Made by a program: the position numbers and the translations under genes
The notes under the pieces: generated by a model
What the model was told of the DNA's origin: nothing
Seen by the model: the letters and a program-made list of their open reading frames with translations, nothing else
Databases searched by the model: none
Assembly: GCA_034620365.1 (NCBI GenBank)
Contig: JAQGEQ010000175.1
Location: forward strand, 1,116,001 to 1,180,000
From: Pegea sp. RAD2-039
Taxonomy: Eukaryota; Chordata; Thaliacea; Salpida; Salpidae
Direction: 5' to 3'
Length of the DNA: 64,000 nucleotides
In this document: piece by piece, positions 35,986 to 38,900 of the stretch
How the letters are laid out: the number at the start of each line of letters is the position of its first letter
Numbering within the stretch: position 1 is the stretch's first letter

Positions 35986-38900
35986 TTAATTTAAAAAAGG
36001 GTTTTTATCATCTCCATTTAGAAAAGGATTTTTATCATCTTTATTTAGAAAAGGATTTTTATCATCTTCATTTAGAAAAGGATTTTTATCATCTTCATTT
36101 AGAAAAGGATTTTTATCATCTTTATTTAGAAAAGGATTTTTATCATCTTCATTTAGAAAAGGATTTTTATCATCTTCATTTAGAAAAGGGTTTCCATCTT
36201 CCAAAATATAATTTCTATCGCCCACAGACATATTCTTCTTTTTTATACTTGGAAACACTTCACTTTCTTTCAACAATTTCTGCTCAATTTTCTTCGTTTC
36301 TTTCAAACCAAATGAACCGACTTTCAAATGACTAGAAAGTGATAAGAAAGCTTCTTCTGGAGCAGCATTTGCTTCTGGAGGAGTTTGTTTCCGCAAAAAC
36401 TGCTGCTGATACTTCATTCCATCAGAAACAAAAGATGATACCGGCGAGGACTTCTCTTCTTCGTCAGAAGATGATGAGGAGACACAATCATTAGTATATA
36501 ATGATGCCACTTTTCTTTTCGAATGAATTCGCTTGCATCTGGGACACATTGTGTCGATGCAACTAAAGCAATCCCTGGAAAGTGAAAGCGAGAAAGTTGT
36601 AAGAAACGTCATAATCGCGCCACAGTGACGTAATCAGAAAGATTTAATGTTCACTCACCCATGAAAAACAGCCAGACATCTTGGGCAAGAAGAAACCATT
36701 GGGTCAAAAGGAAAGAGGGTGTCATTGGAGTTACAGACTTCACACACGAAACCTTTCGCTTGACAAAGCTACGTCATAAACCCGCGATTAGTTATGACGT
36801 CATCATCACTGACAGTTTCATCAATTAATCTAATAATCTCACCGAGCAATCGGATTTGATATGATGAGTAAAGTGATCATGAATTGATCTTAACTCAGTT
36901 ATCATCAAACCTGAGTGGATGTCTTTCAGATCAGCGATGGTATACATATTGGCACTATCAACAAAATGTTGTCGTTTTCCGAGCTACAGGTTGAAGAAAA
37001 ACGGTCGGAGTTAGAAACCAATACTTTGAGCGATTAAGCGTCAATCAGTGAGGCATGACGAAGAAAGTTAAATCTTTGAATTGCAGCAGACTTTTGTGCA
37101 ATTGATGCACAACTTACTTTTCGGAGTAGTTTGTTTTGTAAGGCGGAGTTACAAGAGACTAAGTAAGGCTTCATTTGCAAGATATCTTCTCGCATTTTCT
37201 GTAATGTTTAATCAAATATTAGAAAAAGATGTGATATGGAACTGTTCAGTGATTGATGCTGGTTTTGAGAGGATAAGATGAAAGACTTACTTGGATGATT
37301 GCAAGATCTTCCACGAAGTTAAATAACATTGGATTGATTTCCTGAATATTCAAAATCGGTTTTCGTTTTAGTGTCTTCAGTAATTGAAATGAATGTTGGC
37401 ACATCTGAAGAAAAAGAATCTTGTAGACATCAGAAGATCAAATGACACAAATAGAAGATCATTTCAACTTTTATACACAAAATTAGTCGATAAAACAGAA
37501 ATTTCGAAACTTTTTGAGGAGTATGATCCCAATTATGAAGGATGCGAGCCGGTGAAGGATGGAGATTATTCCAATGGCAGTTGGAGCAATAATATAAACC
37601 AGTATAATCACAAAGTCGAGCTTCATCTAAATGAGTTGAAGTTTACAAAAGATTTGATTTTTTATTAAACTTCAAAAACCTCCGCCAGTAATTGAAATTG
37701 AATTCTTGCATTCTGCGCAGCTATACTGCTGTCGAGATAAACCCATCTCTGGACATATTTTCAGCTGCATATTTGTAAGAAATTTAGCTGTTTCAGCCAC
37801 ACATTTACGACGGACAGCAAACAAACACTTTGAATGACAGTTGAAACCACAGTCACGACACCGGTAGCGGATCTAACAGAATGCTTTTGTGATTTGAAAT
37901 TATATTTGGATTTTGTAGCTACTTGCAAAATTCCCCAAATTAAGGTGCTACAACAATCACAGAAATATTTGACGGACATGTTCGATACTTTAATGAAATT
38001 ATGATTCAAAATCTTCTTCCAATTTTCATCAGTTGATTCATTTTCCTGAAAATCATTTTGAAAAATTAACTTGAATTTCAACAACAACAGATCACAAGTC
38101 AGCAACAAGATACCTTCAACTTTTCAAGTTTTAATCGAAGGTCAACAATATTTTTCACCAAATCACTGCGTTTAGCAGAATCTTCTGGAAGTTGAAGTAT
38201 CTTCTCCTTACACTGATTAATTGCGTGTTGGTAGTCCATCTCAGTGAGATATCCTAATTGTCCCTTAAAAAATAAAAGTTTAAAAGATTGTGAGAAACGG
38301 ATGACTTTGATGTGAAATAATTTTACTAATAAAAGCAGATGCTGATATTTGAGAGAAAAGTTATTTGTTGACTGTTGAAAAAAGAATCAATATTTTTTAA
38401 TATTTCTAGTTTGAAAATAAAAAACTATTTTAGAGGTAGCACTTGAAAATTGTTGGTTGTAGATAATTGCTTTCCATAAAAAATAAGAAGTAGCTTTTAC
38501 TACAACATATAATATAACCAAATACTGTGAGGCTAATATTAGAATGTACAAACATAAAAACACAAATATAAAACACTATCAGCTTAAACTTAGGAATTTA
38601 CTACACATGTTAGTATCTGGTACAGCAGAAACAACAAAAATTTGTAATCCAAAAATAATAATTCACTATTGTGAAACACTTTTACTATTTAGTACAGAAG
38701 TTAGTGAGTTTTTCCAGATAAATGATTAACTAATTATACTACCAGGTAGAATTATATTTATTAATATTTCTAAATACTATTAAAGTAGATAATTTATTCT
38801 TTAAAATTAAATAAGTTTCACAAAAATTTTAGAAAAGAATTTCTAGTTAAACCATATTAATTATTATTAGAGTAAATTGCCTCAAAAACTTAGGTACATT

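Follow-up and report, generated by a model that had tools for sequence, protein, structure and literature searches.

The minus strand of the window (the whole stretch of DNA analysed, 64,000 nucleotides) carries a gene best read as DEF8, whose predicted protein ends in an array of eight NPF motifs. We tentatively interpret this array as an EH-domain ligand of high valency that was added to an adaptor of Rab7/late endosomes, with EHD oligomers as the first candidate partners and Eps15/intersectin as the second. What is new here is a DEF8 with a multiplied putative EH-ligand tail, EH ligands acting through NPF being already known.

In other animals, DEF8 is a RAB7/PLEKHM1 adaptor of the endolysosomal system. 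The mammalian Rabenosyn-5 and MICAL-L families bind EHD1 through acid-flanked NPFs, and Rabenosyn-5 and MICAL-L1 bring EHD to earlier or recycling endosomes. Most EHD partners known so far belong to early and recycling endosomes. The Rab effectors with acid-flanked NPFs named in the part of PMC13282721 drawn on here (Rabenosyn-5, Rab11-FIP2 and Rabankyrin-5) fit this picture. The same part describes a preference of EHD1 for acid-flanked NPFs and the binding of MICAL-L1 NPFEEEEED to EHD1, and an excerpt of PMC4398442 likewise reports the preference. No proposal linking DEF8 to NPF or EHD was found in titles and abstract openings, and a text search for Rubicon homology together with NPF found no literature; both searches covered few subscription papers.

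The DEF8 gene and its domains

The assembly containing the window comprises 105.7 Mb in 387 contigs, and its spliced genes identify the genome as eukaryotic. Searches of the assembly with COX1 and with nematode cuticle-collagen and arthropod cuticle families had no match; the controls for the latter two families matched nowhere either. A homology-guided model of the minus-strand gene has 11 exons, whose splice sites and phases are consistent, and encodes a protein of 645 residues. The evidence for each exon is given in brackets.

39381..39579, minus strand: exon 1, start ATG inside, further upstream exons possible (splice sites, frame)
38933..39078, minus strand: exon 2 (splice sites, frame)
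38114..38263, minus strand: exon 3 (splice sites, frame)
37923..38045, minus strand: exon 4, first half of C1 (model, Pfam)
37680..37872, minus strand: exon 5, second C1 half, then first part of the Rubicon RH alignment (model, Pfam, Rubicon alignment)
37511..37626, minus strand: exon 6, RH domain, weak donor AAA/GTTTCG (model, Pfam, Rubicon alignment)
37291..37404, minus strand: exon 7, RH domain (model, Pfam, Rubicon alignment)
37118..37198, minus strand: exon 8, RH domain (model, Pfam, Rubicon alignment)
36843..36983, minus strand: exon 9, RH domain (model, Pfam, Rubicon alignment)
36659..36768, minus strand: exon 10, RH zinc knuckles (model, Pfam, Rubicon alignment)
35986..36574, minus strand: last exon with the last RH zinc knuckle, a 102-residue linker, the NPF array and the stop (open frame, model, Rubicon alignment to residue 472)

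A Pfam search of the model placed a C1 domain at residues 172-223 (PF00130, E 4e-7) and a Rubicon-homology domain (RH_dom) at residues 266-467 (PF13901, E 1.6e-62). Besides these two, no Pfam family was matched at E up to 0.1, and residues 1-107 contain no Pfam domain. The RUN and PH domains, hallmarks of PLEKHM1/Rubicon, were absent from the model in the Pfam search; the model may extend further upstream. The best solved relative was the RH domain of Rubicon (6wcw, E 4e-32, residues 232-472 aligned), with whose zinc knuckles the cysteine/histidine pattern of the RH zinc ligands aligns. Both searches agree with a sequence-only reading of the same DNA, which had described the C1 and Rubicon-homology parts as canonical DEF8. 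The weak donor after 37511 was preferred to preserve collinearity of the RH domain with homologues, human DEF8 among them, and the Rubicon alignment crosses it without a gap.

Two more RH loci were found in the genome, one with a weak PH match (C141) and one with a weak RUN match (C11), both below the Pfam cut-off. Because of these matches, the gene in the window is best assigned to DEF8 beside PLEKHM1- and Rubicon-like paralogues, on the basis of domain content. A search of the genome for a second copy of the last exon returned one match, the window itself. In viral and prokaryotic contig collections the DEF8 core (356 aa) produced 6 and 12 pattern matches, of which not one was confirmed as a relative; given the kind of collections searched, this result carries no information on conservation.

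The window is also rich in the palindrome TGACGTCA, which occurs 12 times against 0.35 expected (for example at 31196, at 33236 and within 58435-60415); the site at 36795 sits in a DEF8 intron. In the window and 12 further stretches (172,010 bases) it occurs 31 times, compared to 1.24 expected by base composition. Open frames at 50370-51872 (minus strand) and 17142-17513 (plus strand) resemble, by eye, retroelement integrase and reverse transcriptase.

A C-terminal tail with eight NPF motifs

The sequence-only reading had assigned to the last exon (36574..35986) a C-terminal extension of about 180 residues in which eight NPF motifs follow each other exactly nine residues apart. This extension was recovered in the model. 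The last exon begins after the acceptor CTTTCCAG and ends with a TAA stop at 35988-35986. Beyond the end of the Rubicon alignment at residue 472, it encodes a tail of 173 residues, composed of the 102-residue linker and a 71-residue array.

35986..36201, minus strand: NPF array, eight units of 27 bp in the order E E K E E K G then stop (Tandem Repeats Finder, model, column comparison)
35958..35963, minus strand: AATAAA, a possible poly(A) signal beginning 23 nt past the stop codon (weak evidence in an AT-rich context)

The NPF motifs start at residues 578, 587, 596, 605, 614, 623, 632 and 641, a spacing of exactly nine. Tandem Repeats Finder detected the 27-bp array at 35966-36193 with 8.5 copies, 92% matches and 0% indels. 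In all six frames of the window there are 17 NPF triplets, 8 of which belong to this array.

Since the last RH zinc knuckle shares its exon with the array and no stop lies between them, the array belongs to DEF8 and not to a neighbouring gene, unless transcripts end early. The possibility of a repeat belonging to a different gene, which the earlier reading had itself raised against a fusion, is thus at odds with the single open frame. By the base composition of the window, the chance that a frame of the length of the tail stays open is about 4e-7, and about 2e-4 for the 102 residues preceding the array. A plus-strand gene over the array was considered and rejected, the plus frames being open because the unit contains no stops. 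Our array scan lists the DEF8 array as open on the plus strand only, because the span reported by Tandem Repeats Finder extends beyond the DEF8 stop codon, up to which the minus frame is open.

The unit reads DDK-NPFLN-x, where x is E, E, K, E, E, K and G in succession and the last unit ends in the stop. The repeated E-E-K order suggests duplication of a three-unit block. Among units 2-7, 2 of 27 columns vary; across all eight units, including the last one with its stop codon, the number is 7 of 27. Judged by this near-identity, the eight NPFs are a recent expansion of a single NPF and not eight independent events, in line with what had been concluded earlier from the near-identical 27-bp units. 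The first and last units show two changes in the NPFL core (AAT/AAC and CTA/TTA), both synonymous. The remaining changes affect the x position and the EDG/DDK part of the first unit.

A charge-hydropathy analysis clearly classed the array as disordered (mean H of 0.309 against a boundary of 0.469), and placed the 102-residue linker marginally on the folded side (0.427 versus a boundary of 0.413). No Pfam domain was detected over the array. Searched alone against solved structures, the array matched solely chains of protein A, with a score per repeat that is no better than chance; in the search with the full protein, the array region matched only Spt5 (E 0.036).

EH-domain proteins encoded in the same genome

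A profile search of the genome with the EH family gave 10 exon-level matches on six contigs. Two tandem EHD genes, both with EHD_N and Dynamin_N, were found on C13. The EH segment of EHD-A is identical to that of human EHD1 at 57 of 93 positions (AKVW versus GKIW). For EHD-B the value is 47 of 93, and its ACVW lacks the lysine two residues before the tryptophan. The net charge of the EH segment is -1 in EHD-A, -5 in EHD-B and 0 in human EHD1. Taken alone, these net charges do not reveal in EHD-A and EHD-B the positive NPF-binding surface on which EHD1 relies, which counts against EHD as the partner. The matches on C3, C6, C52 and C125 look, by eye, Eps15-, intersectin-, REPS- and gamma-synergin-like, and the match on C32 may be another EF-hand protein. 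Between the exons of the first EHD gene (by eye), a 40-bp array of 30 copies is present (C13, stretch L037).

NPF flanks compared within the genome

Acidic residues were counted at positions +1 to +5 after each NPF. The eight DEF8 motifs have 3, 3, 2, 3, 3, 2, 2 and 0. In seven of them the acid falls within +3 to +5, while the eighth ends at the stop, and two units carry K at +3.

Elsewhere in the genome, the array matched best to KNPFLEDDSKNPFLEEEEE on C84 (E 9.2e-6). The ORF at this locus has two stretches of the Rbsn Rab-binding family (E 1.9e-21) and adjoins an ORF with a FYVE domain (E 1.7e-15); by its domains the locus is Rabenosyn-5. A search of the genome with the Pfam NPF family led to C14, a match (E 0.165) that does not reach the cut-off. 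This locus is of the MICAL-L type, with a CH domain (E 2.8e-11) and a bMERB match of 20.2 bits, under its cut-off of 24.6, and its NPFs read NPFLDDE, NPFEDEE, NPFGDDT and NPFLTDDE. The acid counts are 2, 1, 3 and 4 for Rabenosyn-5 and 3, 5, 3 and 3 for the MICAL-L-type protein. The DEF8 unit, NPF-L-N-(E/K/G)-D-D, resembles Rabenosyn-5 NPFLEDD and MICAL-L NPFLTDDE of the same genome. The latter has the same layout as DEF8 NPFLNEDD, with L at +1, a polar residue at +2 and acid from +3.

Three of the four NPFs in the CALM and epsin homologues lack a trailing acid. CALM scores 0 and 0, and the epsin motifs NPFLDANN and NPFFF-end score 1 and 0 (counted by eye). The CALM ORF and the ORF at the epsin locus end in or near an NPF. 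The epsin homologue is a putative one, composed of an ENTH match and an NPF-bearing ORF that lie on one strand of L054; a portion of that ORF submitted to Pfam gave no match.

The Pfam family for the repeating NPF of Rabenosyn-5 (PF16601) did not match DEF8 at E <= 0.1, nor was DEF8 among the two matches of the genome search. Rabenosyn-5 and the MICAL-L-type protein of this genome scored 18.6 and 19.9 bits for it, below its cut-off of 27.6. The flanks of the DEF8 motifs thus appear to resemble those of EHD-binding families of the same genome more than clathrin-adaptor NPFs. This contrast is suggestive only, because Rabenosyn-5 and MICAL-L were found via searches favouring acid-flanked NPFs and CALM and epsin via the ENTH family, which biases the comparison.

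In-frame minisatellites in other genes

As an in-frame, 27-bp repeat with eight near-identical units, the DEF8 array falls under the definition of a coding minisatellite. We scanned 156,008 bases for arrays, comprising the window and ten stretches (L036-L045) that hold EH, RH or Rabenosyn genes with the neighbouring 10 kb, at a period >= 12, copies >= 4 and a score >= 100. Ten arrays passed. Besides DEF8, in-frame arrays were found in an intersectin-like ORF (one, L038) and a gamma-synergin-like ORF of 840 residues (two, L040), and their units contain no NPF and have no obvious motif value. The L037 array is open in three frames and probably intronic; five other arrays have no frame open throughout. 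Further ORFs with repeats (L023, L024, L026 and L028) appeared as weak matches of the array in a search biased towards repeats.

The gamma-synergin-like ORF (C125, labelled by eye) carries arrays of 10-residue LQQHPVSSGT and 5-residue LDVAP types. A 21-bp minisatellite of 55 copies (82% matches) lies at 46138-47278 of the window; its minus strand reads QPNTSxI-like in several broken open frames.

Possible function of the array

The data are compatible with the following mechanism. As in other animals, DEF8 would be localised to RAB7 membranes through its RH domain, and the tail would be exposed. Each NPF would bind an EH domain weakly, and eight copies could provide avidity for multivalent EH partners, EHD oligomers in the first place and Eps15/intersectin in the second. 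In this way DEF8 would recruit the membrane-fission ATPases of the EHD family to late endosomes or lysosomes. As expected of a class I EH ligand, the NPFs lie in a segment predicted to be disordered and without a Pfam domain. An EHD-type ligand is suggested by the acid after NPF in seven of the eight motifs, starting at +3 and thus later than the +1 of NPFEEEEED, and the two EHD genes provide candidate partners with an EH domain. Published work agrees with an effect of copy number: single NPFs are weak binders, the strength of EPS15 pull-down roughly follows the number of NPFs (PMC6524969, in part) and a weak NPF binds EPS15 when tripled (PMC12808100, in part). Against an EH ligand speak the start of the acid at +3 only, the two K at +3, the last motif at the stop, the missing PF16601 match and the marginally folded linker. 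Moreover, a C. elegans two-hybrid study, whose text does not contain DEF8, found the EH domain of the worm EHD protein RME-1 to be a weak surface for interactions (PMC3570524). According to an excerpt of a fly study in which Def8 RNAi enlarges late endosomes and a Past1 RNAi line is also listed, clusters of autophagosomes and lysosomes tethered by HOPS showed no enrichment of the EHD protein Past1 (PMC12143387).

The most serious rival is neutral amplification of one NPF, given that other genes of the genome contain in-frame minisatellites too. On this view, a DEF8 tail that tolerates change would have come to include an NPF triplet, which was then copied and homogenised without selected function, perhaps with weak EH binding. 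Variation at 2 of 27 bases in units 2-7 is what recent turnover predicts. With the composition of the DEF8 body, NPF arises by chance at 7.4e-5 per position, or about 7e-4 per nine-residue unit. If a tenth or more of the genes carry coding arrays, an extrapolation amounting to thousands of arrays, one or two chance NPF arrays are expected genome-wide. However, genes of endosomal Rab pathways are few, and we judge the chance of an array arising there with an EHD-ligand-like acid flank to be a few per cent. The synonymous nature of the core changes in the edge units also argues against neutrality, though the events are few. Since an acid-flanked NPF in a RAB7-pathway gene would so rarely occur by chance, function is held over neutrality at roughly two to one, and we regard the neutral origin as rather unlikely, though well worth reckoning with. 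The sequence-only reading had linked the tail to EH machinery; this link stands as plausible, given flanks nearer to those of EHD-binding families and the presence of EHD genes, but neutral amplification had been overlooked as a real alternative.

Among functional explanations an EHD-type ligand is the leading one, ahead of an Eps15-type ligand. An array serving mainly Eps15/intersectin/REPS-type proteins would tie DEF8 to the clathrin coat instead of EHD. The C-terminal NPF does recall clathrin adaptors, including the CALM and epsin-locus ORFs of this genome, Eps15-, intersectin- and REPS-like EH matches exist on C3, C6 and C52 (by eye), and the multiplied NPF that gains EPS15 binding was ineffective as a single motif (PMC12808100, in part). 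We nevertheless consider this improbable in view of the 0-1 acids in the CALM and epsin NPFs versus 2-3 in DEF8 units 1-7. A tail outside the main DEF8 protein, due to an alternative 3′ end or unspliced read-through, is highly improbable: the DEF8 model is a prediction and the plus-strand frames over the array are open as well, but the one stop-free frame shared with the last zinc knuckle, its low chance probability and the nearby AATAAA all point to a genuine C-terminus. We attach equally little weight to another receptor of the NPFs such as POLE2, as DEF8 of other animals acts in the endolysosomal system. For this subunit of DNA polymerase epsilon, a general role as NPF receptor has been reported in human cells; its binding depends on the flanks, and the text of the paper does not contain DEF8 (PMC12808100).

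Returning to the EHD-type ligand, a more specific version would make DEF8 a high-valency recruiter of EHD fission ATPases on RAB7 membranes. It would directly link the identity of late endosomes and lysosomes to the fission of tubules or the reformation of lysosomes, and the strength of this link could be tuned by minisatellite copy number. We put this forward as speculation that is more likely wrong than right. If true, EHD fission machinery would be brought to degradative compartments by a RAB7 adaptor whose eight NPFs include seven with an acid flank. A minisatellite would then rewire trafficking by multiplying a linear motif, and its copy number would offer a natural dose series. If the array is neutral, it cautions against reading function into repeated short motifs.

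Comparison with known systems

Human DEF8 presumably carries one NPF near its N-terminus, in which case the EH link would predate the array; a text search with part of this N-terminal sequence found nothing. The DEF8 proteins of human (459 residues; PMC10564863, in part) and Drosophila (CG11534) have the same C1 and RH domains as the protein described here, in whose model no RUN or PH was detected. In contrast to them, it comprises 645 residues, with about 173 after the RH domain and eight C-terminal NPFs. SNAP29, a factor of autophagosome-lysosome fusion, likewise uses an NPF to bind EHD1 (PMC6551745, in part), but is a SNARE with an N-terminal NPF and no array. Clathrin adaptors (epsin, CALM/AP180, HRB and DAB2) also have several NPFs, one of them at or near the C-terminus; their spacing is irregular, and in the CALM and epsin homologues of this genome three of four NPFs are acid-free at +1 to +5. 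Rabenosyn-5 and MICAL-L1 resemble DEF8 as Rab-pathway proteins with several NPF-plus-acid motifs, and their homologues in the same genome are similar. They differ in the Rab, in the other domains and in having four irregularly placed NPFs, whereas DEF8 carries eight at fixed spacing with acid from +3.
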